DNA of 36,004 nucleotides from an uncultured Ectothiorhodospiraceae bacterium (lineage in GTDB: Bacteria > Pseudomonadota > Gammaproteobacteria > UBA9214): assembly GCA_947258845.1 (NCBI GenBank), contig CAMYJZ010000031.1:1-36004 (forward strand), read 5' to 3'. This document shows positions 2-34,967 of this stretch, piece after piece. The notes beneath the pieces were generated by a model. That model did not search any database and was not told where the DNA came from. It was given only the letters and a program-made list of their open reading frames with translations. Numbering within the stretch: the first letter of the stretch is position 1; the number at the start of each line of letters is the position of its first letter. The position numbers and the translations under genes were made by a program.

Positions 2-172
2 AGCGGCCGCATCCTCGGCAATTGGGGCGTCTACCTCATGGACGCCGCCGCCATCCTGTTCCTGCTGCTGGCCGCCACCGGCGTCTGGCTGTGGGGCAAG
101 CGCCGTGTCACTGCAAAGGAACACCAGCGCCGCAAGCAGGCACACGAAAAACACGTGAAACGTGAAACGTGA
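2..172 (+). CDS. C-terminal fragment of a membrane protein, possibly PepSY-associated TM protein (5' truncated by the window edge)
   Basis: Frame-2 translation SGRILGNWGVYLMDAAAILFLLLAATGVWLWGKRRVTAKEHQRRKQAHEKHVKRET*; one TM helix followed by a basic tail; the stop lies inside the CGTGAAA array. Confidence 0.6.
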   Translation, partial: SGRILGNWGVYLMDAAAILFLLLAATGVWLWGKRRVTAKEHQRRKQAHEKHVKRET

Positions 173-223
173 AACGTGAAACGTGAAACGTGAAACGTGA
201 AACGTGAAACGTGAAACGTGAAA
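154..223 (+). repeat. Tandem heptamer array, 10 perfect copies of CGTGAAA
   Basis: Direct reading: cgtgaaa x10 from 154 to 223. Confidence 0.97.
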
Positions 224-269: not shown

Positions 270-302
270 CGCCACGGAATCCACGGAAGAACACGGAAAT
301 AT
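270..302 (+). repeat. GCCACGGAATCCACGGAAGAACACGGAAA repeat
   Basis: Near-identical copies on either strand at about 436-470, 5223-5253, 5341-5372, 5482-5513, 16237-16267, 17299-17332, 33761-33792, 34064-34095, 35792-35830 and 35959-35982. Confidence 0.9.
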
Positions 303-307
303 ACTGA

Positions 308-345
308 CCCGTAAGATGAGCAAAGGCCGACAGGCCGTGCCCGTC
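308..345 (+). repeat. GTAGGATGGGCAAAGGCC-GGCCGTGCCCGTC inverted-repeat element
   Basis: Further copies at 475-513, 4384-4418 and 5286-5323 (the last two in reverse orientation). Confidence 0.85.
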
Positions 346-420: not shown

Positions 421-735
421 TCAACCATCATCAAATAGCCACGGAACCACACGGAATTACACGGAAATAAATAACCCGTAGGATGGGCAAAGGCCGACAG
501 GCCGTGCCCGTCGAAATCCTCCATATCGGGCACGCTGCACTGCCCAACTTACCCATCCACGCGCCACCCGGAATAACAGCCTCGTACACACACCACAAAT
601 CCAACGGTGCGTAAAACACACCCTACGGTGGAAACATTTATCGCGCCCTCGGGGCGCTCCTACAACGCTATATTCAGGTCCCCGCCTTTTCCGTTTTGTT
701 CGCAATTTATTCCTTTGCGCTTGCTTTGCGCCCTT

Positions 736-1686: not shown

Positions 1687-3474
1687 TCACTTTGCCTCCA
1701 GCTTTATCACCAGCTCAGACCCCTGCAGCGCCACGTCGTGATTCACCGACACCGGCTTGTAGCCTGCCGCGTTCACACTCAGCCGGTGGCTACCCGGCCC
1801 AAGCTGGGTGAAGCGGAAGTTTCCCTGCTCGTCGGCCGCCGTGGTGCGCCGCGAGGTGCTGCGCATCCCGCTCGCCTGGTGTGACCAGATCAGGTTGATG
1901 TTGGTCACCGCCACCGGGTAGCCATCCTCGTTCACCACCTGGCCACGAATTTCATCATAGCCCCAGTCCAGCATCACCGGGATATGCAGCGCGCCGCCGG
2001 GAGGCATCTGGATGCCCTCTATAGTGTAGTACGGCGTCGACTTGGTCCGCAGGCGCAGCTCACCGGCCGGCGCACCCTCGACTTCGAAATTCCCCGCCCC
2101 GTCGCCGAGCACCCGCTGGTTGTAATAGGAGGTCTCCTTCGTTTGCAGCACCAGGCTGAAATCGGGCACCGGGTTCCCGAACAGGTTGACCATCTGCCCG
2201 CTCAGGGTCCCGGTGTCCAGGGCCTCCAGCTCGATGGCCAGCGTCTTACCCTGGTGCGTGACCTTGATGTTGCGCTGGAAGTAGTCCTTGAAGCCGGCCG
2301 CGGCATTGATGGACAGCATGTAGTCCTCGCCGGGCTCCACGTTGTTAATCGTGAACTTGCCATCCGCATCGGTCGTCGCCCGATAGTTCTGGCGCACCTT
2401 GGCAGAAGACAGCCCGATGCGCTGGCCGCTGACCGGGGCGCCCCGTGGCCCCTTCACCGTGCCGCTGACCTGGGCCAGCACCGTATCCGACTCCGGCTCC
2501 ATGACGATGTTCAGCTCGCGTACATTGTCGTCACCCAGTTCGGTGGTATCGAGCCGTGCATCCTGGTCCTGGTAGCCCTCGCGGCGGGCCCGCACAGTCA
2601 GCCCCTGGGCATTATCCAGCAGCTTGACCTCGAAGCTGTAACGGCCCTCCTTGTTCGTGCTGACCTCCTTGGTCGGATGGACCGCAGGCCGCAGCACCAC
2701 CCGGGCCAGCGGCTCGCCCGCCGGGTCCGTCACCAGCCCGTGCACCCGCAGGTCCTGCTGGCCCGTGACGATGAGGTCCGCGAAATCCACCCCGGCACGT
2801 ACCTGGATCAGCGCCCGGGCATAACTCGGGGTCGCGACCGTACTGACCTGGTACTCGCCATTGGCCAGGCCCTCAAAGGCATAGGCGCCGTCGTAACCAC
2901 TGGTGGTGCTGCGTTCGCTCGCGCCCCTCGGGATGTGCTTGCGCCGCCCCTCCTCGAACAGGTAACTCGCTCGGGCCGTCACCCGGATCCCCGGCACGGG
3001 CGTGCCGGAGCGGTCCAGCACCCGCCCGGAAATGGCGAGGTCACCCTCCGGTAATACGGGTTCGGGGATAGCAGGCTCTTCCGGGACGGCCTGCGGATCA
3101 CCGAGTTGCATGTCCAAATCAGGGGAGGATTCAGCCATCGGGCTCGCCGTTGCTTCAAGAGAAGACGATTCAACTCCCTCCGGGCCGGTTTCAGTCACGG
3201 CAGTTCGTGAAGCGGGACCCCGCGGTGTCTCAGGAGTTGGGGTAATAATTGCCTGTTTCGGCGCGGCAGGTCCGGGCGCGACGGCCTCACCCTGCACAAC
3301 GATGACCGTGGCCTCCGGAGGGTAGGTGTATTTGAACCACAGGATGCCGGTATAGGCCGCCAGAAACACCAGCACTGCGGCCATAAGAAGCCGGTTCGAG
3401 CGTAACCAATGGCGCAAGGAGTTTATTGCCGCCTCGCCTCTGTTTGGAGGTTCTATGTCCTGTCGCGTTTTCAT
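1687..3474 (-). CDS. Membrane-anchored protein with multiple carboxypeptidase-regulatory-like (Ig-like) domains
   Basis: Probable start MKTRQDIEPPNRGEAAINSLRHWLRSNRLLMAAVLVFLAAYTGILWFKY; repeated motifs ISGRVLDRSGTPVPGIRVTA, VHGLVTDPAGEPLARVVL, VSGTVKGPRGAPVSGQRIGL, IRGQVVNEDGYPVAVTNINL. The upstream extension of the ORF reads through repeat DNA. Confidence 0.8.
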   Translation of the reverse strand: MKTRQDIEPPNRGEAAINSLRHWLRSNRLLMAAVLVFLAAYTGILWFKYTYPPEATVIVVQGEAVAPGPAAPKQAIITPTPETPRGPASRTAVTETGPEGVESSSLEATASPMAESSPDLDMQLGDPQAVPEEPAIPEPVLPEGDLAISGRVLDRSGTPVPGIRVTARASYLFEEGRRKHIPRGASERSTTSGYDGAYAFEGLANGEYQVSTVATPSYARALIQVRAGVDFADLIVTGQQDLRVHGLVTDPAGEPLARVVLRPAVHPTKEVSTNKEGRYSFEVKLLDNAQGLTVRARREGYQDQDARLDTTELGDDNVRELNIVMEPESDTVLAQVSGTVKGPRGAPVSGQRIGLSSAKVRQNYRATTDADGKFTINNVEPGEDYMLSINAAAGFKDYFQRNIKVTHQGKTLAIELEALDTGTLSGQMVNLFGNPVPDFSLVLQTKETSYYNQRVLGDGAGNFEVEGAPAGELRLRTKSTPYYTIEGIQMPPGGALHIPVMLDWGYDEIRGQVVNEDGYPVAVTNINLIWSHQASGMRSTSRRTTAADEQGNFRFTQLGPGSHRLSVNAAGYKPVSVNHDVALQGSELVIKLEAK

Positions 3475-3505
3475 CTTTGCAATATTACCCCCTCTCCCTC
3501 CGGGA

Positions 3506-3554
3506 CGACTGCATGGATGCAGGAGGTAGAGCAACGCAGGGATGCAGTTGCCGA
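3506..3554 (+). repeat. 48-bp nested element, copy 2 (49 bp)
   Basis: cgactgcatggatgcaggaggtagagcaacgcagggatgcagttgccga inside ccctctccctccggga...gaggccggggagagggg. Confidence 0.85.
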
Positions 3555-3750
3555 GAGGCCGGGGAGAGGGGAGTTCAATAAGGCTGCCACGTATCCGATC
3601 AGATACAGCATAACCCAAACCTACCGTGGCTTATAAAACATAATGTTAACGACCAGACCTCAGATCATCATAATGACCGTACCCAGGGAGATTGCGCCGC
3701 GATGGGCGTATAATTCCTCTCCCCTGAGATCAATAAGTAGCTCCACCGAT

Positions 3751-5143: not shown

Positions 5144-5422
5144 GTTGCTGCTCCTGTGAGGTTTCTGTTGGTACAAAAAAGGCAAACAATCGCGCCTGCG
5201 AGGCGCTCCCAGAATCATTTCATTCCGTGTTCTTCCGTGTGGTTCCGTGGCTAACAAATGTCCATTAACAAACAGGAAAGGTATCGACGGGCACGGCCTG
5301 CCGGCCTTTGCCCATCCTACGGATCTTATAAGCATTCTTATCCTTCCGTGGTTTCCGTGGATTCCGTGGCTATTCTTTCGCGCCCGCAAGGCGCTCTACA
5401 CTTTACTTCTTACTTTTCACAC

Positions 5423-5463
5423 TTCACGTTTCACGTTTCACGTTTCACGTTTCACGTTTCACG
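5423..5463 (-). repeat. Heptamer array (CGTGAAA on the minus strand), 5 full copies plus a partial
   Basis: ttcacgtttcacgtttcacgtttcacgtttcacgtttcacg. Confidence 0.95.
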
Positions 5464-5616
5464 TCTATTATACGTTTTTATCTTTCCGTGGTTTCCGTGG
5501 TTTCCGTGGCTATATCTTTGCGTTCTTTGCGTCTTTGCGGTGAAACGTTTTATCGCGCCTGCAAGGCGCTCCTACACTTTACTTCTTATTTTTCACGTTT
5601 CACGCTTCACGTTTCT

Positions 5617-7023
5617 TCACGCATCCTTGTGGCAACCGAACAGTTCGCGTTCGCGGATCATGCGGCCGACCTCGTCGGGGACCATGGTCTCCCAGCCCGG
5701 ATCCCCGCAGCGGATCTTTTCCAGGATGTCGCTGGACAAATAACCCAGGTAGTCCTGGTTGATGTCGGTCAGCGACTTGATCAGCCCGTTCTCGAGCAGG
5801 TATTCATACAAGTGACGCAGGTGGGGCGCCACCTCGAGGTCTTCGACCGTCACCAGATTACCCGTATCGGGATCCCTCCAGGGACAGACATAGAAGCGCA
5901 GGTTGTTCTTGAACAGCCGCCCGAATGCCTCGAGGATGCCGCCGGCGAGATCGGTGTAATAACGCTCGTCGAGAATCTCCTTCAGGGTGGGCACGCCCAT
6001 CGCGACGCCCACGGGCTTGTCGGTGTAGCGGTGCAGGTAACCGGCCAGCCGGTAGAAGGCGCCGTAGTTCGAGATCAGCACGTTCTTGCCCAGCATGCAG
6101 AGGATGTCCGCGCGCTGCAGGAAATCCTCGATCTGGATGTCGGTCCCGTCGGACAGGTTGTGCAGGGTCATTTCACTGAGCACCAGCGCACACTCGTCGC
6201 AGGCCTCGGGTTCCTTGACGAAGGCGGCATGCGCGCTGTCCAGCAGATTCATGGTCAGCTTGGTCGGCGGCTTGAAGCGGCTGCGCTCGATCAGGACCGC
6301 CTTCTTGTAGAGCATGTCACCCGGCTGCACCACCTTGCCGTCGGCCGTGAACATGGCCGCGTTGCAGGCGCCCTGCTGCACCAGCAGCAGCGCCATCAGG
6401 CGATTGTCCACATCGGCGAAGGCCGGGCCGCTGAAATCGAGCAGGTCGATTTCGAGGTTGTCCATGCTCAGGTTATCCAGCAGGGCCTCGAGCAGTTCAC
6501 GCGGGTCGCGGTACAGGTGGGTAGCGCCGTAGATCAGGTTCACGCCCAGCACCCCGAGCGTATCCTGGTCCTGCGTACTGTCCTTGCCGTGCAGGTACAC
6601 GTGCAGCACGATCTGCGAGGGCGTCTCGCGCGGCTGCGTCTGGAAGCGGATACCCAGCCAGCCGTGCCCTTCCTCGGCGTGACTGTAACTGTGGATGGTC
6701 ACGGTATTGGCGAAAGAAAAGAACGTGGTCACGGCGCCGCGCGTCTCGTCCAGGCGATCGATCAGCAGCTCGTATTCGTAATTAAGCATCGCCTCCAGGC
6801 GGTCGCGGCTGACATAGCGCTTGCAGGGCCCGTAGATGGAGTCGCTGAACTTCATGTCGTAGGCGGACATCGCCTTGGCGATGGTGCCCGCGGCACCGCC
6901 CACCTTGAAAAACCAGCGCGCCGTTTCCTGGCCCCCGCCGATCTCGGCAAGGGTGCCGTACTTGGTGGTGTCCCGGTTGACCATCAGGGCCTTCTCGTGG
7001 GCATCCGGCAACTTATTTACCAT
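5617..7023 (-). CDS. Conserved protein of unclear function (468 aa; MVNKLPDAHEKALMVNRDTTKYGTLAEIGGGQETARWFFKVGGAAGTIAKAMSAYDM...)
   Basis: Long ORF; I recognise the N-terminal motif as a conserved bacterial family with inconsistent annotation; no catalytic motif I can name. Confidence 0.8.
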   Translation of the reverse strand: MVNKLPDAHEKALMVNRDTTKYGTLAEIGGGQETARWFFKVGGAAGTIAKAMSAYDMKFSDSIYGPCKRYVSRDRLEAMLNYEYELLIDRLDETRGAVTTFFSFANTVTIHSYSHAEEGHGWLGIRFQTQPRETPSQIVLHVYLHGKDSTQDQDTLGVLGVNLIYGATHLYRDPRELLEALLDNLSMDNLEIDLLDFSGPAFADVDNRLMALLLVQQGACNAAMFTADGKVVQPGDMLYKKAVLIERSRFKPPTKLTMNLLDSAHAAFVKEPEACDECALVLSEMTLHNLSDGTDIQIEDFLQRADILCMLGKNVLISNYGAFYRLAGYLHRYTDKPVGVAMGVPTLKEILDERYYTDLAGGILEAFGRLFKNNLRFYVCPWRDPDTGNLVTVEDLEVAPHLRHLYEYLLENGLIKSLTDINQDYLGYLSSDILEKIRCGDPGWETMVPDEVGRMIRERELFGCHKDA

Positions 7024-11003: not shown

Positions 11004-12014
11004 ATGTCTTTTCTGAAGACCGGTTCGATGCGTCCGCTGCTGCTGTTTAGCGGTCTACTGGCACTGGCGCTGGCCGGGTTTGCCTGGAGCCTCGCAAGCG
11101 GCAGTCTCGATGTCGGCTGGCGCGGGCTCATGGACGCCCTGTTCACCGACGACGCCGGGCTGCACGCCCGGGTGATACTCGAATTGCGCTGGCCCCGCGC
11201 GGCCGCGGCCTTTGTTACCGGCGCCCTGCTCGCACTGGCCGGGGCATTGATGCAGGTGCTGTTGCGCAACCCGCTGGCCGACCCCTACGTCCTCGGCATC
11301 TCCGGCGGTGCGGCCACCGGGGCGCTGCTGACCCTGTTGCTCGGGCTCGGCGGCCTGTGGCTGCACGGGGCCGCCTTCAGCGGCGCCCTGCTGTCGATGC
11401 TGATCGTGTTCGGCCTGGCGCACGGCCGCGGCAGCTGGACCATCAACCGCCTGCTGCTGACCGGCATCGTCATCGCCGCCGGCTGGGGCGCGGTCATCGG
11501 TTTCCTGCTGGCGATAAGCCCGGAGCAGAACCTGCGCGGCATGCTGTTCTGGCTGATGGGCGACCTGGCCTACTCCGGCACGCCGCTGGCCGGCCTCGTT
11601 GTCCTGCTGGCCGGGTTGCTGATCGCGCTGGCCATGGGCCGTATGCTCAACATCCTCGCGCACGGCGAGTTGGCCGCGGCGACCCTCGGCGTGCCGGTCG
11701 CGGCCGTGCGCCGCCTGATCTATGTACTGGCCTCCCTGCTCACCGCCGCCGCGGTGACCATGGCCGGCAGCATCGGTTTCGTCGGCCTGGTGGTCCCGCA
11801 CATGCTGCGCCTTGTGGGGGTGCGCGATCACCGCCTGCTGCTGCCGGCGGCGGCCCTGCTGGGCGGCAGCCTGCTGCTGATCGCCGACACCCTGGCGCGC
11901 ACCCTGCTGGCACCGCGCCAGTTACCGGTGGGCATCCTGACGGCACTGGTGGGCGTGCCGGTGTTCCTGCTGCTACTGTACCGCAGCCGCGAACTCCACG
12001 GCCGGGCGGGCTAA
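11004..12014 (+). CDS. btuC: BtuC/FecCD-family ABC transporter permease
   Basis: LRWPRAAAAFVTGALLALAGALMQVLLRNPLADPYVLGISGGAATGALL; GSIGFVGLVVPHMLRLVGVRDHRLLLPAAALLGGSLLLIADTLAR. Confidence 0.85.
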   Translation: MSFLKTGSMRPLLLFSGLLALALAGFAWSLASGSLDVGWRGLMDALFTDDAGLHARVILELRWPRAAAAFVTGALLALAGALMQVLLRNPLADPYVLGISGGAATGALLTLLLGLGGLWLHGAAFSGALLSMLIVFGLAHGRGSWTINRLLLTGIVIAAGWGAVIGFLLAISPEQNLRGMLFWLMGDLAYSGTPLAGLVVLLAGLLIALAMGRMLNILAHGELAAATLGVPVAAVRRLIYVLASLLTAAAVTMAGSIGFVGLVVPHMLRLVGVRDHRLLLPAAALLGGSLLLIADTLARTLLAPRQLPVGILTALVGVPVFLLLLYRSRELHGRAG

Positions 12015-12019
12015 CGGCG

Positions 12020-12787
12020 ATGGCGCTGCTGGAAATATCGGGACTCGACGTCCACATCGGCAGCGCTGACGTCTGCCAGCGGCTGGAACTGCAGGTCAAC
12101 GCCGGCGAACGCTGGGCCATCCTCGGCCGCAACGGCGCCGGCAAGACCACCCTGCTGCACACCCTGGCGGGCCTGCGGCGTCCCGACAGCGGCACGCTGC
12201 GACTGGATGGCGCGGCGCTGGACGCCCTGCCCCGGCGCCGCATCGCCCAACAGGTCGGTGTCCTGCTGCAGGACCACCTGGATGCCTTTCCCGCCAGCGT
12301 CATGGAGACCGTGCTGATCGGGCGCCACCCCTACCTGGGGGCGCTGCAGTGGGAGGGTCCGGATGACTACGCGCGGGCCCGCGCCGCCCTGCACGCCGTC
12401 GGACTGGACGGGCTGGAGGATCGCAACGTGGCCACGCTCTCCGGGGGCGAACGCCGGCGCCTGGGCATCGCCACCCTGCTGACCCAGGACCCGGCCCTGT
12501 GGCTGCTCGACGAACCCACCAACCACCTGGACGTCCACCAGCAGATCCGCATCCTGGACCTGTTGCAGGCCCGATCGCAGGCACAACACAAGACGCTGCT
12601 GCTGGTGATGCACGACCTCAACCTGGCCCTGCGCTATTGCGACCGCTTCCTGTTGCTGTTCGGGGAGGGCAAAACCGCCCAGGGCAGCGCGGAGGAGGTG
12701 CTGACCCGGGCGACCCTGGAACGCCTGTACGGGCACCCGATGCACACCCTGGACGGGCCGCGGGGCCCGGTCTGGCTGCCGGGATAA
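12020..12787 (+). CDS. btuD: BtuD/FecE-like ABC transporter ATP-binding protein
   Basis: Walker A LGRNGAGKTT, signature LSGGERRRLGIATLL, Walker B LWLLDEPTNHLD; start MALLEISGLDVHIG. Confidence 0.88.
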   Translation: MALLEISGLDVHIGSADVCQRLELQVNAGERWAILGRNGAGKTTLLHTLAGLRRPDSGTLRLDGAALDALPRRRIAQQVGVLLQDHLDAFPASVMETVLIGRHPYLGALQWEGPDDYARARAALHAVGLDGLEDRNVATLSGGERRRLGIATLLTQDPALWLLDEPTNHLDVHQQIRILDLLQARSQAQHKTLLLVMHDLNLALRYCDRFLLLFGEGKTAQGSAEEVLTRATLERLYGHPMHTLDGPRGPVWLPG

Positions 12788-12809: not shown

Positions 12810-12838
12810 TTGACACCCCTGCGGGCGGGACTTAAAGT
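12810..12838 (+). promoter_or_regulatory. Candidate sigma70 promoter for the btuB transcript (TTGACA-17 bp-TAAAGT)
   Basis: TTGACA at 12810-12815 and TAAAGT at 12833-12838, directly upstream of the riboswitch. Confidence 0.6.
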
Positions 12839-12847
12839 CGTCCGCGC

Positions 12848-13036
12848 TTACAGGTGTCCCGCGGACAGTCGTCCCCGGGATGAAACGGGAAGCCGGTGCG
12901 TCACCCCATGACAATTCCGGCGCTGCCCCCGCAACGGTAAGCGAGACAAGGTGGGCCAGCATGCCACTGCGCACAGCGCGGGAAGGCGGTCCACCGGGAT
13001 GATTCCTCTCGCGAGCCCGGAGACCGGCCTGGAGCC
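12848..13036 (+). promoter_or_regulatory. Cobalamin riboswitch
   Basis: aggtgtcccgcgg...gatgaaacgggaagccggtg...ggcgctgcccccgcaacggtaag...gccactg...gcgggaaggcgg...gcgagcccggagaccggcctgg: canonical ordered cobalamin aptamer motifs upstream of btuB. Confidence 0.95.
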
Positions 13037-13139
13037 TGACTTGAACGTATCGCGGCGGGCGATGCAGACAGGATGCCCTCCGCCTCTCTGTCTTTCCCCC
13101 CGGTACCGCTACAGCGCGGGTGTGCGCAGGGGAGAACTG

Positions 13140-14999
13140 ATGGAACCGGGTCGACGCCCAATCATGGGTCTGCTGCTCTTCAGCTGCCTGTTTACCGGCC
13201 TGGTGCCGGAGGCCGCGAACGCACAGACCCCTGTCGTCGTCACCGCCACCCGCATGGCGCAGACCGCCGATGAAACCCTCGCCTCCGTCACCGTCATCAG
13301 CCGCGACCAGATCCAACGCAGCCAGGCGGGCAGCCTGACCGAATTGTTGCGCGGCGTGACCGGCATCGACATCGTCACCCAGGGGGGCGCGGGTCAGCTG
13401 AGCTCGATGTTCATGCGCGGCACCAATCCCGGCCATGTCGCCCTGCTGGTCGACGGCCTCCGCATGGGTTCGGTGACCGCGGGCAGGGTGTCCTGGGAAT
13501 TCATCCCGCTGCACCAGGTCGAGCGCATCGAGATCGTGCGCGGCCCCAACTCGGCCCTGTACGGCTCCGAGGCGATCGGCGGTGTCATCCAGATCTTCAC
13601 CCGGCGTGGCAGGGGCCCGCTGCAGTGGAGTGCAACGGCCGGCGGCGGGCGTTACAACAGCCGCGAGGCGACGCTGGACCTCAGCGGCTCCGCCGCCGAC
13701 AACTGGTTTTCCGGCCGGTTCTCCAGGCTGGAGACCGATGGTTTCGATGCCCGCGATCCCACTGTCGAGTTCAGCACCCCGATCGATGATCCGGACGACG
13801 ACGGTCACGCCAACACCGCCCTGAGCCTGAGGGCCGGGCACCGTTTCGCCGGCGGCAGCGAACTGGAATTCCACGGTCTGCACGCACAAGGCAACGTCGA
13901 GTTCGACAGCAGTGCCCCCTACCCCGATGAAGACGATTTCGTCGAGCAGGTGCTGGGGGTGTCGCTGCGCACACCGCTCACGGCATTCCTGGACCTCACC
14001 GCCACGGCGGGCCGCAGCCTGGACGAACGCGAGAGCTTCCGCTCCGGGGTGCCGGACTCGACGATACACTTCGATTCGGAACGTCGCAGCTTCTCCCTGC
14101 AGGGGGACTATGCGCCCTCTGATGAGGACATCGTCACCCTTGGCCTTGACTATCATGACGACCGGGTTGACAGCAGCACGCCCTACAACGAAACCGCGCG
14201 TTACACCCAGGCCGTGTTTGCCCAGTACCGCGGCGAGCGCGGCGGGTACACCCTGCTGGCGCGCATCCGGCCGCTGGATGACGAACAGTTCGGCAACCAC
14301 ACGACCGGCAACCTGGCCTGGGGATACCAGTTACACCCGACCACCCGCCTGGTGGCCTCCTGGGGCACGGCCTACCGGGCACCCACCTTCAACGACCTGT
14401 ACTTCCCGGACTTCATGGGCTTCCCCACCAGCAACCCGGACCTCAACCCCGAAGAATCGGAGACCCTCGAGTTCGGCGCCGAGGGCCGTGCCGGCGGACT
14501 CGACTGGGACCTGCGCATCTTCCGCACGCGCATCGATGACCTGATCGTATTCGACCTGGCCAGCTTCCTGCCGGCCAATGTGGATCAGGCCACCATCGAA
14601 GGACTGGAGGCCGCGCTGTCCGGTGACCTGTATGGCTGGACAACCAGCGCATCGGCAACCTTCCTCAACCCGACCGATGACAACACCGGCAATATCCTGC
14701 CGCGGCGCACCAAGCGCAGCCTCAAGCTGGATATCGACCGCCGCTTCGGAAAGGCCGGCATCGGCGCCTCATTCATTGCCCAGAGTGCCCGCTTTGACGA
14801 CCGGGACAATACGATCACGCTGGGTGGCTACGGCCTGCTCGATCTGCGCGCCGCCTGGCAGCTGGACCGCAACTGGCAACTGCAGGGCCGTCTGGAAAAC
14901 GCGCTCGACAAGGACTACCAGACGGTCGATACCTATAACACCGCAGGGCGCAGCCTGTTCGTGGCCCTGCGCTACCGCGCGGATGCACAGGCGCACTGA
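13140..14999 (+). CDS. btuB: TonB-dependent vitamin B12 receptor
   Basis: TPVVVTATRMAQTADETLASVTVISRDQIQ TonB-box/plug, IEIVRGPNSALYGSEAIGGVIQIFTRRG, C-terminal ENALDKDYQTVDTYNTAGRSLFVALRYR; preceded by a cobalamin riboswitch. Confidence 0.93.
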   Translation: MEPGRRPIMGLLLFSCLFTGLVPEAANAQTPVVVTATRMAQTADETLASVTVISRDQIQRSQAGSLTELLRGVTGIDIVTQGGAGQLSSMFMRGTNPGHVALLVDGLRMGSVTAGRVSWEFIPLHQVERIEIVRGPNSALYGSEAIGGVIQIFTRRGRGPLQWSATAGGGRYNSREATLDLSGSAADNWFSGRFSRLETDGFDARDPTVEFSTPIDDPDDDGHANTALSLRAGHRFAGGSELEFHGLHAQGNVEFDSSAPYPDEDDFVEQVLGVSLRTPLTAFLDLTATAGRSLDERESFRSGVPDSTIHFDSERRSFSLQGDYAPSDEDIVTLGLDYHDDRVDSSTPYNETARYTQAVFAQYRGERGGYTLLARIRPLDDEQFGNHTTGNLAWGYQLHPTTRLVASWGTAYRAPTFNDLYFPDFMGFPTSNPDLNPEESETLEFGAEGRAGGLDWDLRIFRTRIDDLIVFDLASFLPANVDQATIEGLEAALSGDLYGWTTSASATFLNPTDDNTGNILPRRTKRSLKLDIDRRFGKAGIGASFIAQSARFDDRDNTITLGGYGLLDLRAAWQLDRNWQLQGRLENALDKDYQTVDTYNTAGRSLFVALRYRADAQAH

Positions 15000-15679: not shown

Positions 15680-16225
15680 ATGGGCAAACGACTCACGAAG
15701 ATCTACACCCGCACCGGGGATGACGGCACCACCGGCCTGGGCGACGGCGGGCGGGTCGACAAGGATGACCCGCGCATCGAGGCCATCGGCGCGGTGGACG
15801 AACTCAACAGCGCCATCGGTCTGTTGCTCAGCGACGAGGTTCTCGAAACCATCCGGTCGACTCTGACATCGGTCCAGCACCGCCTGTTCGACATCGGCGG
15901 TGAATTGAGCATGCCCGGCACAAACATCCTCGACCCCGGACGTGTCGAGGCCCTGGAGGAAGCCCTCGATGCACTCAACAGCGAGCTGCCGGCCCTGAAG
16001 GAATTCATCCTCCCGGGCGGGAGCAGGGCCGCGGCCAGCTGCCACCTGGCGCGGGCCATCTGCCGCCGCGCCGAGCGCCGCGTCTACCAGCTGGCCAGGA
16101 CCGCCGAGGTCAACCCGGCCACGCTCAAATACCTGAACCGCCTGTCCGACCTGCTGTTCGTGATGGCACGCAGCCTCAACAAGCAGGCAGGCCACCCGGA
16201 CGTGTTCTGGCAGCATGAAAGGTGA
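15680..16225 (+). CDS. pduO: PduO-type cob(I)alamin adenosyltransferase
   Basis: MGKRLTKIYTRTGDDGTTGLGDGGRVDKDDPRIEAIGAVDELNSAIG...LPGGSRAAASCHLARAICRRAERR. Confidence 0.93.
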   Translation: MGKRLTKIYTRTGDDGTTGLGDGGRVDKDDPRIEAIGAVDELNSAIGLLLSDEVLETIRSTLTSVQHRLFDIGGELSMPGTNILDPGRVEALEEALDALNSELPALKEFILPGGSRAAASCHLARAICRRAERRVYQLARTAEVNPATLKYLNRLSDLLFVMARSLNKQAGHPDVFWQHER

Positions 16226-16293
16226 AACGCAGATCTGGCCACGGAATCCACGGAAAACACGGAAAAATAAATAATTAGGCTCGCCCCCAAATC

Positions 16294-17243: not shown

Positions 17244-17399
17244 TCGTATATGATAACGAGGCGTATCTACATTTCTTTTTTCACGTTTGAATCTTTATCT
17301 TTCCGTGTCCTTCCGTGGATTCCGCGGCTATTCTTTCGCGCCTGTACCCGATTAAACGCAGGCATAAACGAGGCGCTCCTACATCTCACCTTTCACTTT

Positions 17400-18299
17400 T
17401 CACTCTTTACTCCTTACTTTCTCGAGCAATTGACATAACTGCTCCGCACCGTCCAGTACGCGCGGTGAATGACGCACCATCAGGTCGCGCGGAATGGTGA
17501 ACAAATGTCCGTCCTTCACGGCCGTCAGTTCCAGCCAGGGTGTCCACATCGCGTGCAGCTCGGACAGCTCCTCCCTGCCGCCGCCGGCGATGATCACCTG
17601 CGGATCGGCGACCAGCACCGCCTCGATACCGATCTGTGGCGCCAGTCCCGGCAGTGCCTCGAAGACGTTGTGGCCACCGCACAGGCGGATGACATCGCTG
17701 ATCAGGTGTTCGCCGTTGACCGTCATCAGTGGCTGCTGCCAGATCGAATAGAATACCCTGACCGGTTCCCGTTTTGCGTAGCGCCTGACCAGCCCGGCAT
17801 GGCGTTGCCTGAAGGCCCCGGCCTGTTCCCGCGCCTGCTCAGGGCTGCCGGCCAGCAGGCCAAACCGTTCCATGTTGGTCATCACATCCTCCAGTCGGCT
17901 CGGCTCGGAGACAAACACCCTCAGACCCAGCTGGCGCAAGCGGCTGACCTGGTGGGCCGGATTGCCGCTTTGCCAGGCAATCACCAGGTCCGGCCGCAGC
18001 CCGAGGATGGCCTCCAGGTCCAGCCCGTTGCCGCCACTGATGCGCGGCAGATCGAGCGCCGCCGCGGGATAGTCGCTGTGTTCCGACACCCCGACCACGG
18101 CAGCGCCGGCACCTGCGGCGAACAGCAACTCGGTGATGTGTGGTGCCAGGCTGACGATGCGCTGCACGGGCCGCTCCAGCACCAGTTGGTTGCCGGCATC
18201 ATCCGTCACCCGGATCTCCGGCCATGCCGGTGTCAGCGGCAAGGCCCACAGCAGCAGCAGGCCGAGTCGCCGGGAAAGGACTGGTATTGATGTCGCCAT
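17400..18299 (-). CDS. btuF: BtuF-like cobalamin ABC transporter substrate-binding protein
   Basis: Signal peptide; RIVSLAPHITELLFAAGAGAAVVGVSEHSDYPAAALDLPRISGGNGLDLEAILGLRPDLVIAWQSGNPAHQVSRLRQLG; near btuB and btuCD. Confidence 0.88.
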   Translation of the reverse strand: MATSIPVLSRRLGLLLLWALPLTPAWPEIRVTDDAGNQLVLERPVQRIVSLAPHITELLFAAGAGAAVVGVSEHSDYPAAALDLPRISGGNGLDLEAILGLRPDLVIAWQSGNPAHQVSRLRQLGLRVFVSEPSRLEDVMTNMERFGLLAGSPEQAREQAGAFRQRHAGLVRRYAKREPVRVFYSIWQQPLMTVNGEHLISDVIRLCGGHNVFEALPGLAPQIGIEAVLVADPQVIIAGGGREELSELHAMWTPWLELTAVKDGHLFTIPRDLMVRHSPRVLDGAEQLCQLLEKVRSKE

Positions 18300-22677: not shown

Positions 22678-24991
22678 CAGGGCTGTTGAAAACTCGATCC
22701 TGCTGCTGACGTTGCTGTTCTGGACTCTGTCAGCACTGGCAGCAACCCAGGTGTTGCTGGAAGCCGGATCAAGTAACAAATTTCTCGCCAATACCACCAA
22801 TCCCGGTTCCGGGAACAACTGGACTATGGAGGATTTTCCTGGTGAATCAGGCTGGACCAGCGGCACCTATGGCATAGGCTATGAAACCGGTACCGGCGCC
22901 CAGAATCTGTTTCAGACCACCATCCCCGCAGGCACTCATTCCATCTATACACGCGCAACATTTAATCTTGCCGATCCAGGGGCCATTACCGGTATGTTCC
23001 TTGGTGTTGATTATGATGATGGCTACGTGGCCTGGATCAATGGGACGGAGGTATCCCGTTCCGCCTCGATGCCGGCCGGCACACCCTCCTGGAATACGAC
23101 ACCGGCCTTGCACGAATCCAGTAATGCGACTAGCCCGGTTTACACCCCCCTGCAAGACATCACTTCCCTGGCGCTGCCTGTGCTGCATAGCGGGGAAAAT
23201 GTCCTGGCGATCGCCGCCTACAACAACTCAAGCAGCTCCAGCGACCTGGTACTGGTTCCGCAGCTCTCCATCACTACAACCGTCACTCGCGGGCCCTACC
23301 TGCAGCAGGGAACGCCCGACAGTATCATTGTCCGCTGGCGCACAGCGACGCCTACTGACAGTCGGGTTCGCTATGGCAATACCCCGGGCAATCTCAGCAG
23401 CTCGGTTGAAGATGCCGCCGCGACCACTGAACATGAAGTCACATTGACAGGGCTGGCCGCAGACACCACCTATTACTATTCCATTGGCAGCACGAGCGAA
23501 GTCTTCGCCGGCGATGACCCTGATCATTTCTTTCTGACATCACCTCCCGCCGGGTCTGTCAAACCCACCCGCTTGTGGGTGCTGGGGGATTCCGGTACGG
23601 CCAATGCCGATGCACAGGCCGTGGCCAATGCCTATGAAAACTTCACTGCTTCAACACACACCGACCTGTGGCTGATGCTGGGTGACAATGCCTATAACGA
23701 CGGCACCGACAATGAGTACCAGGCCGCCGTGTTCGATATGTATCCCGGGATGCTGCGCAAATCCGTGCTCTGGCCGACACTCGGCAACCACGACGGTCGT
23801 ACCGCGGATTCTGCAACCCAGACCGGTCCGTATTACGACATCTTTTCCCTGCCGACCAGTGGCGAGGCCGGCGGCCTGGCATCGGGCACCGAGGCCTACT
23901 ATTCATTCGATTATGGCAACATCCATTTCATCTGCCTGGATTCGCACGAGACCAACCGTTCACAGGGTGGGGCCATGATGAACTGGTTGACGCAGGATCT
24001 GGCCGCCACCTCGCAGGAATGGATCATTGCCTTCTGGCACCACCCCCCCTACTCCAAGGGCAGCCATAATTCCGATACCGAAACGCCGTTAATCGAGATG
24101 CGCGAGAATGCCCTCCCGATTCTCGAAGCAGCCGGCGTGGACCTGGTGCTATCAGGGCACAGCCACTCCTATGAGCGCTCCTATCTGATCGACGGCCATT
24201 ATGGAGTTTCAACGACACTGACACCGGGCATGCAGGTCGATTCAGGGGATGGCCAGGCTGACGGCGATGGCGCCTACAAGGCGGTGTTCAACGAGGCCGA
24301 TCCATACAGAGGGGCTGTTTATATCACCGCCGGGAGCTCGGGCAAAATCACCAGCGGCACACTGGATCATCCGGTGATGGTACATGCCTCATTACTGCAA
24401 CTCGGCTCGCTGGTGCTCGATATTGACGGTAACCGTCTGGATGCAAGATTCGTCAGGGAGAATGGTGCTATTGATGACTACTTCACCATTCTGAAGAACC
24501 CCGACAATTGCCCGGCCATCGCCAATCCCGATCAGCTGGACACCGATGGCGATGGCATGGGCAATGCCTGCGACATGGATGATGACAATGACGGCCTGAC
24601 AGACAGTTTTGAAGCGGGCATCGGCACCAATCCCTTGCTGGCCGATACCGACGGTGACACCCTGAGTGATTTCCAGGAAGTGAACTTTGACAATGACCCG
24701 GCCTACACACCGGGCGCAGACCTCAATCCGCTGTCAGCTGACACCGATGGCGACGGACTTCCGGACGCGACCGACCCGATTCCGCTCGACTTCAATTATG
24801 CAGACGGTGATGTGGTAACAGACGAAGATATCAACGCCGGTGATGCCGTTGTCATGTTGCGATTTGCATTTGATCTTGATCAGCCTGACAACACGCACCT
24901 GGCACACGGTGACCTGTATCCTCAAGGCAACCCGGACGGGATAATCAACCTTCAGGATCTGCTGCTGTTCTGGCAGTTGATGCTTCCCTGA
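22670..24991 (+). CDS. Secreted purple-acid-phosphatase-like metallophosphoesterase with thrombospondin type-3 repeats and dockerin-like C-terminus
   Basis: Fn3-like TRGPYLQQGTPDSIIVRWRT; LGDSGTANADAQ, LGDNAYNDG, LGNHDG, LSGHSHSYERSY; Ca-binding DTDGDGMGNACDMDDDNDGLTD; C-terminal NPDGIINLQDLLLFWQLMLP. Confidence 0.85.
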   Translation: MINRAVENSILLLTLLFWTLSALAATQVLLEAGSSNKFLANTTNPGSGNNWTMEDFPGESGWTSGTYGIGYETGTGAQNLFQTTIPAGTHSIYTRATFNLADPGAITGMFLGVDYDDGYVAWINGTEVSRSASMPAGTPSWNTTPALHESSNATSPVYTPLQDITSLALPVLHSGENVLAIAAYNNSSSSSDLVLVPQLSITTTVTRGPYLQQGTPDSIIVRWRTATPTDSRVRYGNTPGNLSSSVEDAAATTEHEVTLTGLAADTTYYYSIGSTSEVFAGDDPDHFFLTSPPAGSVKPTRLWVLGDSGTANADAQAVANAYENFTASTHTDLWLMLGDNAYNDGTDNEYQAAVFDMYPGMLRKSVLWPTLGNHDGRTADSATQTGPYYDIFSLPTSGEAGGLASGTEAYYSFDYGNIHFICLDSHETNRSQGGAMMNWLTQDLAATSQEWIIAFWHHPPYSKGSHNSDTETPLIEMRENALPILEAAGVDLVLSGHSHSYERSYLIDGHYGVSTTLTPGMQVDSGDGQADGDGAYKAVFNEADPYRGAVYITAGSSGKITSGTLDHPVMVHASLLQLGSLVLDIDGNRLDARFVRENGAIDDYFTILKNPDNCPAIANPDQLDTDGDGMGNACDMDDDNDGLTDSFEAGIGTNPLLADTDGDTLSDFQEVNFDNDPAYTPGADLNPLSADTDGDGLPDATDPIPLDFNYADGDVVTDEDINAGDAVVMLRFAFDLDQPDNTHLAHGDLYPQGNPDGIINLQDLLLFWQLMLP

Positions 24992-25090: not shown

Positions 25091-25131
25091 ATCACCGCAG
25101 AGACGCAGAGGACGCAGAGGACGCAGAGGAC
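25091..25131 (+). repeat. CGCAGAGGA direct-repeat element
   Basis: atcaccgcagagacgcagaggacgcagaggacgcagagga. Confidence 0.9.
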
Positions 25132-33720: not shown

Positions 33721-34139
33721 AATCGGCCGCGATGGCCTGGACATGCCCGCTTTAACAACTGGCCACGGAAACACACAGAATTACACGGAAAAAAAGCGTG
33801 AGAAGTAAGGAGTGAAATGACTTATCTGCGATAATAGCGACGCCCCCTCATCCGGACCTTTGCACGTGAGGGGCAGGGACAAAACCGGTTCAACGCCAGC
33901 GTATTCGGACACCGTTATTTTGCTCTGCTCTGCGTTCTTTGCGTCTCTACAGTAAGATTCTTTATTTCTTATATTTGTTTTTTCCGTCTGATTCCGTGTG
34001 TTTCCGTGGCGAGTTATTTTTCTTCTCACTCTTTACTTTTTACTTTTTAATTTTGTTTTAATCTTTCCGTGTTCTTCCGTGGATTCCGTGGCTATTTAAT
34101 CGCGCCTGCGAGGCGCTCCTACACCTCATATTTCACTTT

Positions 34140-34814
34140 TCACACTTCACTCTTCACCTTTAATGCCAGCGTCAGGCCGTCCGCAACCGGGAGCAGGCTC
34201 ATCGCCACCCGCTCATCCGCGTGCACCTGGCGGTTCAGCTCGCGTATTGCACGGGTATCGGCATCCTGTTTGTCCGGGTCGGCGACATCCCCCGACCACA
34301 GGGTATTGTCGATGGCCATCAGTCCGCCCGGGCGCAGCAACTGCAGAACCGCCTCGTAGTAATTGGCGTAGTTTTCCTTGTCCGCATCGATAAAGGCGAA
34401 ATCAAAACTCCCGGCCTGCCCCGCGTCGATCAGCCCCTGCAGGGTCGCCAGGGCGGGTGCCAGGCGCAAATCGATCCGCCCGGCCACCCCGGCCTCGGCC
34501 CAGTAACGTCGGGCAATTGACGTCCATTCCTCGCTGGTATCACAGGCGACGATCCGGCCATCCGGTGGCAGGGCCTGCGCCACCCAGAGTGCGCTGTAGC
34601 CGGTATAGACCCCCACCTCCAGGCAGCGGCGGGCGCCAATCAGCTGCACCAAGAGCGCCATGAACTGGCCCTGCTCGGGGGCCGACTGCATCCTGGCCAT
34701 GGCGTCAGTAGCAGTCTCGGCACGCAGCCGACGCATTACCTCCGTCTCCCGCAGGGACACCGACAGGAGGTACTCGTAGAGCGCATCGTTCATGGAAAGC
34801 GTCTTGTTTGTCAT
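34140..34814 (-). CDS. SAM-dependent O-methyltransferase (CCoAOMT-like)
   Basis: CLEVGVYTGYSALWVAQALPPDGRIVACD; FDFAFIDADKENYANYYEAVLQLLRPGGLMAIDNTLWSG. Confidence 0.92.
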   Translation of the reverse strand: MTNKTLSMNDALYEYLLSVSLRETEVMRRLRAETATDAMARMQSAPEQGQFMALLVQLIGARRCLEVGVYTGYSALWVAQALPPDGRIVACDTSEEWTSIARRYWAEAGVAGRIDLRLAPALATLQGLIDAGQAGSFDFAFIDADKENYANYYEAVLQLLRPGGLMAIDNTLWSGDVADPDKQDADTRAIRELNRQVHADERVAMSLLPVADGLTLALKVKSEV

Positions 34815-34967
34815 AACAGATCCGTCTCTCGAAAAACCCGGTCCCGGCGAAAACACCGGATTACCAGGACTGATTTCGCACGGGCAGCGGAAATCGAATA
34901 CACTTCACACAGCCGGTGTACATGGCAGGGTAGTATAGCGTTCAGGCAATCACTTCAAATTGGGAAA

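Follow-up and report, generated by a model that had tools for sequence, protein, structure and literature searches.

The GGGAATC and GGGGA(C/T)T heptamers of Xanthomonas and Nostoc form intergenic arrays whose purine-rich strand is coding downstream of ORFs, where they lie within 50 nt and overlap stop codons, and non-coding upstream of ORFs (Rehm et al., 2015, PMC4692102). They lie nearer to their 5′ neighbour whatever the ORF orientation, occur as inverted pairs in Xanthomonas and differ in length between relatives (PMC4692102). Read by hand, the seven codons of a GGGAATC array are free of stops on both strands. The TAACTGA heptamers of marine Beggiatoaceae, Cyanobacteria and Bacteroidetes, which have no known mover, are patchily distributed over distant phyla (MacGregor, 2015, PMC4679880). 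Stops occur in each of their forward frames and in no reverse frame, and reverse copies are open to readthrough; the stops limit their overlap with gene 3′ ends, which is at most 18 nt, and in BOGUAY most copies stand in forward sense directly before start codons (PMC4679880). For long simple sequence repeats in general, Mrazek (2007), as reported in PMC4679880, found heptanucleotides to be the commonest class, with a scattered phylogeny, and proposed slippage; polarity relative to gene boundaries is absent from the description as given there. A further related group is that of the GTAG REPs, among which GTAG-1 combines its GTAG tag with one unpaired dinucleotide, a stem of short length and a 3-nt tail (Di Nocera et al., 2013, PMC3733652).

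The DNA analysed here (the window) is a stretch of 36,004 nt, the whole of contig C31 from a genome of 160 contigs. Its CGTGAAA repeat is like the heptamers of Rehm et al. (PMC4692102) in being a tandem 7-nt unit that is mostly intergenic, lies nearer the 5′-side ORF and overlaps coding-strand stops. Unlike them, it is without G-runs and hence forms no quadruplex, placing it outside the G4 repeat family, and it carries a stop codon and occurs as one unit in about ten phyla. Beyond that description (PMC4692102) are a polarity present in 9-nt repeats also, a count of inward pairing and a mosaic with a REP-like hairpin. With TAACTGA (PMC4679880) it shares stops in all forward frames, a stop-free reverse strand, overlap with gene ends and a patchy occurrence in phyla, but its polarity at 5′ ends is the opposite and the unit is different; the TAACTGA unit is not purine-rich, and no mosaic with nonamers and REP-like elements is described for it. 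The hairpin module of the window (GTAG-GA-GCGCC..GGCGC-GAT) is built like GTAG-1, with the tag, the unpaired dinucleotide, the short stem and the 3-nt tail, and resembles GTAG REPs and BIMEs in lying downstream of genes in mosaics with other repeats (PMC3733652).

Both main features of the arrays, all-frame stops and outward polarity, have precedents (PMC4679880, PMC4692102). The sequence-only reading of this DNA had treated an all-frame stop heptamer at gene ends as an element not known to be described, which fails in part, as TAACTGA had already been described (PMC4679880). In the open-licence literature no match was found to exact (CGTGAAA)2 or to the nonamer arrays. What can be drawn from the locus is a testable rule on the build of intergenic gaps, with short purine-rich repeats at both borders facing inward. 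The rule spans several phyla and includes units with as well as without stops, which makes its mechanism separable from coding side effects.

Repeats of the window

The following features were identified, with coordinates in the window.

1-172, + strand: membrane protein gene truncated at the contig edge (3′ part), with the C-terminus ...HEKHVKRET-stop
154-223, + strand: perfect heptamer array (CGTGAAA)10 (TRF, direct reading)
231-255, + strand: REP-like hairpin TGTGGGAGCGCCTTCAGGCGCGATC, GTAG-type form (sequence)
271-298, + strand: nonamer block GCCACGGAATCCACGGAAGAACACGGAA (sequence)
1650-1690, − strand: degenerate GTRARNN heptamers by the 3′ end of gene 1687-3618 (−) (sequence)
5344-5400, − strand: second hairpin (5378-5400), then (CCACGGAAN)3 (5344-5369) (TRF, sequence)
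5415-5463, − strand: second heptamer array of 7 units, polarity as at 5591-5611, beginning a second mosaic copy
5483-5539, − strand: nonamer blocks (CCACGGAAA)3 (5483-5509) and CGCAAAGACGCAAAGAACGCAAAGA (5515-5539) (TRF, sequence)
5553-5576, − strand: REP-like hairpin TGTAGGAGCGCCTTGCAGGCGCGA (sequence)
5591-5611, − strand: heptamer array directly after the native TGA of gene 5617-7023 (−) (stop present in array-less G004)
16214-16227, + strand: two units resembling chance occurrences within the native gene end CATGAAAGGTGAAA, no array (same end in array-less G001)
17302-17383, − strand: long-loop hairpin (17337-17383) and CACGGAA nonamers (17302-17328), polarity as at 17391-17404 (sequence)
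17391-17404, − strand: degenerate heptamers by the 3′ end of a cobalamin-binding-protein-like gene, 17400-18299 (−) (TRF, sequence)
25096-25131, + strand: stop-free nonamer array (CGCAGAGGA)4 (TRF)
34065-34123, − strand: hairpin (34100-34123) and CACGGAA nonamers (34065-34092), downstream of the array at 34131-34161 (sequence)
34131-34161, − strand: degenerate heptamers ending gene 34140-34856 (−) (ortholog comparison)

The perfect array at 154-223 was recovered both by TRF and by direct reading, and its CGTGAAA strand heads away from the gene ending at 172. Five shuffles and the reversed window contained no heptamer arrays. Computed for the perfect array, every forward frame has a stop (three per frame in nine units) and the reverse strand has none, as had been proposed from the letters. 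Minus-strand arrays with at least two near-perfect units are located at 5415-5463, 5591-5611, 17391-17404 and 34131-34144; in all of these the GTGAAA strand is the sense strand of the adjoining gene end. The purine strand of the nonamer array at 25096-25131 points away from the gene ending at 24991.

A phase-variation contingency repeat would be expected as an array in a promoter or coding region of surface genes, switching their expression by its copy number; the genes neighbouring the arrays are metabolic or housekeeping genes. A cobalamin riboswitch (Rfam RF00174, 118 bits) was identified at 12835-13046, upstream of a TonB-dependent receptor (13164-14999). Also nearby are ABC-transporter genes (11130-12787), a cobalamin-adenosyltransferase-like gene (15680-16225) and the periplasmic binding-protein-like gene 17400-18299, and the region is predicted to be a B12 uptake cluster. 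The riboswitch is the sole Rfam match in the window, and the array was accordingly rejected as a member of an Rfam RNA family. A further intergenic hairpin, CCGTAGGATGGGCAAAGGCCG-CAGGCCGTGCCCGTC, recurs at 5273-5322 (−), 310-340 (+) and 480-515 (+), with no significant outward polarity among 11 copies in 0.95 Mb.

Array-supplied and native stop codons

Six genes (ending at 172, 1687, 5617, 16225, 17400 and 34140) had been read as ending within heptamers, with a TGA and last codons derived from the repeat. These ends were compared with orthologs in congeners G001, G002 and G004, which are syntenic with the window, and in G003 and G006 for single genes.

In the gene ending at 172, the TGA (170-172) lies within the second/third unit of the array. 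The ortholog in G001, with five units, ends ...HEKIRET-stop, and that in array-less G004 ends ...HEKHAKET-stop with TAG, a comparison which supports an array-supplied stop. The copy number at this orthologous site is 10 in the window's own genome, 5 in G001 and 0 in G004, so that copy number and C-terminus both differ between relatives, as the sequence-only reading had proposed to check. The gene ending at 34140 ends LTLALKVKSEV-stop (TGA) in the window and LTLALKR-stop (TAA) in G002, where the heptamers directly follow the stop; orthologs without heptamers end LTLVMKR-stop with TAG (G006) and LTLVLNQP-stop with TAA (G004). It is supported by these ends that the array gave this gene about four extra residues and a new TGA stop. 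The gene ending at 17400 probably also has its stop from the repeat. In the window's genome and G003 it terminates ..KE-stop within heptamers, and in array-less G004 and G002 it runs 3-5 residues longer; the ortholog in array-less G001 itself ends in GTGAGAAGTGA, which leaves some doubt.

The TGA of the gene ending at 5617 is at the same place in array-less G004 (FGCPKTG-stop, TGA), and judged from this alignment the stop is native, with the array beginning just after it. At 16225 only two degenerate units are present, and this gene was rejected as a case of an array-supplied stop, its G001 ortholog ending identically (...FWQHER-stop, TGA) without repeats. A search of five relatives gave no ortholog of the gene that ends at 1687. 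The claim of a repeat-derived TGA therefore stands for 172 and 34140, and probably for 17400, and is withdrawn for 5617 and 16225. Repeat-derived last codons are likewise upheld at 172 and 34140 by comparison with array-less congeners, but not at 5617 and 16225, where the gene stops at the same place without an array. Arrays start at the stop, be it native or array-supplied. For annotation this carries a warning, as some protein C-termini are repeat-derived and arrays can shift a stop a few codons up- or downstream.

Orientation of heptamers and nonamers relative to genes

Polarity was analysed in 119 loci, picked for four perfect units, which together contain 198 arrays of 21 nt or more; genes were called with a simple coding-score caller that had been inspected visually on the window. 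The back of an array is here the side 5′ of its CGTGAAA strand, and the front is the other side. The great majority of arrays (177/198) lie outside called ORFs, and 18 of the 21 within ORFs are antisense, with the stop-free strand being read. On the back side, 54/79 arrays lie within 20 nt of a gene 3′ end and 37/79 overlap its stop; on the front side 6/82 are within 20 nt of a 3′ end and none overlap. Random relocation of arrays within their gaps gives 9.9 where 54 are observed. Median distances are 1 nt to 3′ ends and 48 nt to 5′ ends on the back side, and 130 nt and 163 nt respectively on the front side, the 5′ distances being upper bounds as some called starts are truncated. Where genes overrun into the array they do so in all three phases, with 15, 6 and 11 cases at −5, −12 and −19 nt in the 119 loci.

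The same polarity is seen at 5′ ends, where the CGTGAAA strand is antisense to the adjoining gene: within 20 nt of a 5′ end, 13 heptamer arrays point away and 1 toward the gene. The back is nearer to a gene than the front in 91/120 arrays (p = 1e-8), and opposite arrays in one gap are inward-facing in a ratio of 36:0 (p = 3e-11, median gap 50 nt), p-values which overstate independence, since the 119 loci were selected for perfect units and several of them share one genome. Because arrays also hug 5′ ends in antisense, there is no net sense bias in gaps between tandem genes (47 sense vs 50 antisense). The stop cassette at 3′ ends is thus half of a two-sided pattern.

In the window's own genus, where there are few 5′-side arrays, 21 arrays have their back within 20 nt of a 3′ end (relocation null 2.1) and none their front, and inward pairs number 5:0. 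An independent sample, a Thermoanaerobaculia genome, gave 5 back vs 0 front, with the back nearer than the front in 19/23 (p = 0.003). By phylum, the trend was repeated in Chloroflexota, Desulfobacterota, Verrucomicrobiota and Gemmatimonadota, except at the 5′ ends of Chloroflexota, where polarity is weak (back 6/11 vs front 7/15). A further sample, G147, yielded 7 arrays, located on short contigs and not numerous enough to be read alone.

Facing arrays are complementary, and it might be proposed that they act as a hairpin or a bidirectional boundary signal between genes, serving in termination, insulation or RNA stability. Opposite arrays are inward-facing without exception, at a median gap of 50 nt, REPs have roles of this kind in other bacteria (PMC3733652), and transcript starts and ends are commoner at the G4-forming heptamers (Rehm et al., PMC4692102). 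Nevertheless, most arrays are single and not paired, and either order of a pair could fold, which leaves the 36:0 ratio unexplained. For the one region folded, the mosaic at 5345-5640, RNA stability was not significantly above that of shuffles (z −1.16), and no T-run follows the hairpin module in gene sense. Terminator-like matches near 5180-5510, for the most part the repeats themselves, point neither way. A boundary signal is considered quite unlikely as the explanation.

The nonamers ACGCAGAGG, ACGCAAAGA and CCACGGAAT of the own genome are stop-free in all six frames. At distances up to 100 nt from a 3′ end their purine strand points away from the gene in 39 cases and toward it in 1, and within 100 nt of a 5′ end in 13 and 0 cases respectively. 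The polarity is not clear past about 100 nt, the 5′-side arrays more than 200 nt off being 0:6, toward the gene. CGCARAG nonamers at more than 300 nt from any heptamer are outward in 37/44 cases (p = 5e-6) and form facing pairs in a ratio of 15:0 (p = 6e-5). The strict nonamer pattern was found in one other genome among 299, and nonamer polarity is thus known from the window's genome. As these stop-free repeats are outward-polar away from heptamers and the stop-free GGGAATC arrays have the same polarity (PMC4692102), stop supply is not what causes the placement but follows from it. Stop supply by the arrays is probably a side effect of their placement.

These results bear on the directional, frame-independent stop cassette of the sequence-only reading, according to which arrays are kept at 3′ ends for a one-directional translation stop in all frames. 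As a source of stops the array is real: three forward frames are closed and no reverse frame, 37/79 adjoining gene ends overlap an array in all phases, and two genes (ending at 172 and 34140) demonstrably gained their stop from it. The imperfect units also retain TRA, with TGA or TAA kept in 434/560; the core GTRA is conserved (mismatch 0.03-0.07), and positions 6 and 7 (0.18-0.21) as well as position 1 vary. However, the polarity is also found at 5′ ends, stop-free nonamers and stop-free GGGAATC arrays (PMC4692102) have it too, a native stop precedes the array in other genes and tandem genes show no sense bias. Retention of arrays for this function is therefore regarded as very unlikely.

Two simpler causes were rejected. 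Avoidance of start codons as the single cause of the 5′ polarity is contradicted by the pyrimidine strands of two nonamers, which contain GTG/TTG, and for Rho avoidance the expected excess of C over G fails, by hand count, for some units.

Mosaic structure, origin and distribution

Heptamers, a REP-like hairpin of GTAG type and nonamers are the modules that make up a polar mosaic in this genus. CACGGAA nonamers on the same strand follow 32/41 arrays within 160 nt, with 10 preceding the array and 6 following on the other strand, and the hairpin TGTAGGAGCGCC..GGCGCGA follows 19/41. The hairpin module, a short GC stem-loop with a GTAG tag, is present in 44 copies in 0.95 Mb, mostly with its back side at 3′ ends. 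At 5344-5611 the whole mosaic unit is present twice with one polarity. G004 has hairpins and nonamers without heptamers, and the modules are therefore separable.

A mobile composite, in which a REP/MITE-like unit of heptamer, hairpin and nonamer inserts beside stop codons in fixed orientation, would account for this ordered arrangement, for the tandem duplication at 5344-5611 and for the presence/absence differences among congeners, and the hairpin fits the GTAG REP format (PMC3733652). Unlike GTAG REPs, however, the heptamers and nonamers are not palindromic, and the RAYT transposase was not found (PMC3733652 for the REP format). Mobilisation by RAYT was rejected, with no match to PF01797 in the own genome (94% complete) and matches in control genomes. 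The separability seen in G004 also speaks against a composite, as do the persistence of nonamer polarity far from heptamers, the arrays of other phyla without a common core and the 8 stretches in viral contigs described below. A composite of this kind is held to be unlikely.

Direct observations are where the arrays lie and how they point, the dependence of this on distance, the differences in copy number among congeners and the occurrence of both array-supplied and native stops. The explanation to which we give an even chance is that (CGTGAAA)n is an intergenic simple-sequence array grown by slippage, with the gene next to it deciding which orientation survives. Such arrays would gain and lose 7-nt steps by strand slippage, growing in function-free DNA up to the stop codon on the 3′ side or the ribosome-binding region on the 5′ side. 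In this genus heptamers come first, often followed by the GTAG-type REP-like hairpin and after it by CACGGAA or CGCARAG nonamers. In heptamers and nonamers alike, the purine-rich strand leaves the nearest gene at both of its ends, giving gaps that run purine-rich inward from one border and pyrimidine-rich toward the other. Purifying selection may be the cause of this polarity: purine-rich, SD-like repeats would not be tolerated in the sense strand of a 5′ UTR, and repeats 3′ of a gene would persist mainly as purine-sense RNA. The stop in the heptamer would render overrun into a coding end harmless in any frame, as a permissive by-product and not a function. Against this explanation, selection gives no obvious reason why stop-free nonamers should avoid the toward orientation at 3′ ends or why opposite pairs should be 36:0, and the conserved G at unit position 2 lies outside the stop. 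The GTG/TTG in the pyrimidine strand of two nonamers, the weak 5′ polarity in Chloroflexota and the scarcity of 5′-side arrays in the own genus also count against it.

It is rather unlikely, but worth naming beside the slippage reading, that unrelated purine-rich 7-mers and 9-mers of distant phyla, whether or not they contain stops, are generated or oriented by one shared and so far undescribed process at gene borders, outward up to about 100 nt and inward-facing in every gap, so that the pattern would not be mere purging of wrong orientations.

CGTGAAA is patchy over about ten phyla and missing from nearly all other sampled genomes. Arrays of three units were found among 144 relatives in one congener only, besides the window's genome, and when 399 genomes were sampled evenly across the phylum, in the window's own genome only. 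A cross-phylum scan with one genome per species gave arrays, among the matches listed, in Chloroflexota, Desulfobacterota, Verrucomicrobiota, Acidobacteriota, Gemmatimonadota and Nitrospirota, and also in Planctomycetota, Betaproteobacteria, Bacteroidota and Patescibacteria (at least about ten phyla in all). An array is also present in the cultured Nitrospira defluvii (FP929003.1). Matches run to hundreds in some genomes, such as Desulfococcaceae HSG8 with 414 overlapping three-unit matches and 0 in the reversed control. That the heptamer is identical in about ten phyla points either to transfer or to a preference for this sequence beyond what slippage by itself would produce. Carriage by phages was rejected, viral contigs having only 8 matching stretches, as was a contaminant contig, the window being syntenic with three congeners at about 75-95% protein identity.

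Within the own genome, heptamers and CACGGAA nonamers are concentrated in contigs C31, C47, C49, C55 and C91 as compared with C21-C34. In other phyla, CG-TRA-NN relatives (CGTGATG, CGTGAGG, CGTAATG, CGTAACT/C) are intermixed with CGTGAAA (L177 1882-3029, L098 5671-5840, L111 1298-1603).

CsrA binds an ANGGA core. The CCACGGAA nonamer blocks of the window (271-298, 5344-5369, 5483-5509) have ACGGA in each unit, which fits this core, and a role as an RNA sponge is possible.

In L124 (1831-5746) and L142 (3091-7955), called ORFs have (TTTCACG)n in frame as FHVSRFT-type repeats, and these may represent genuine proteins with repeats, or else reading frames that run on across an array.
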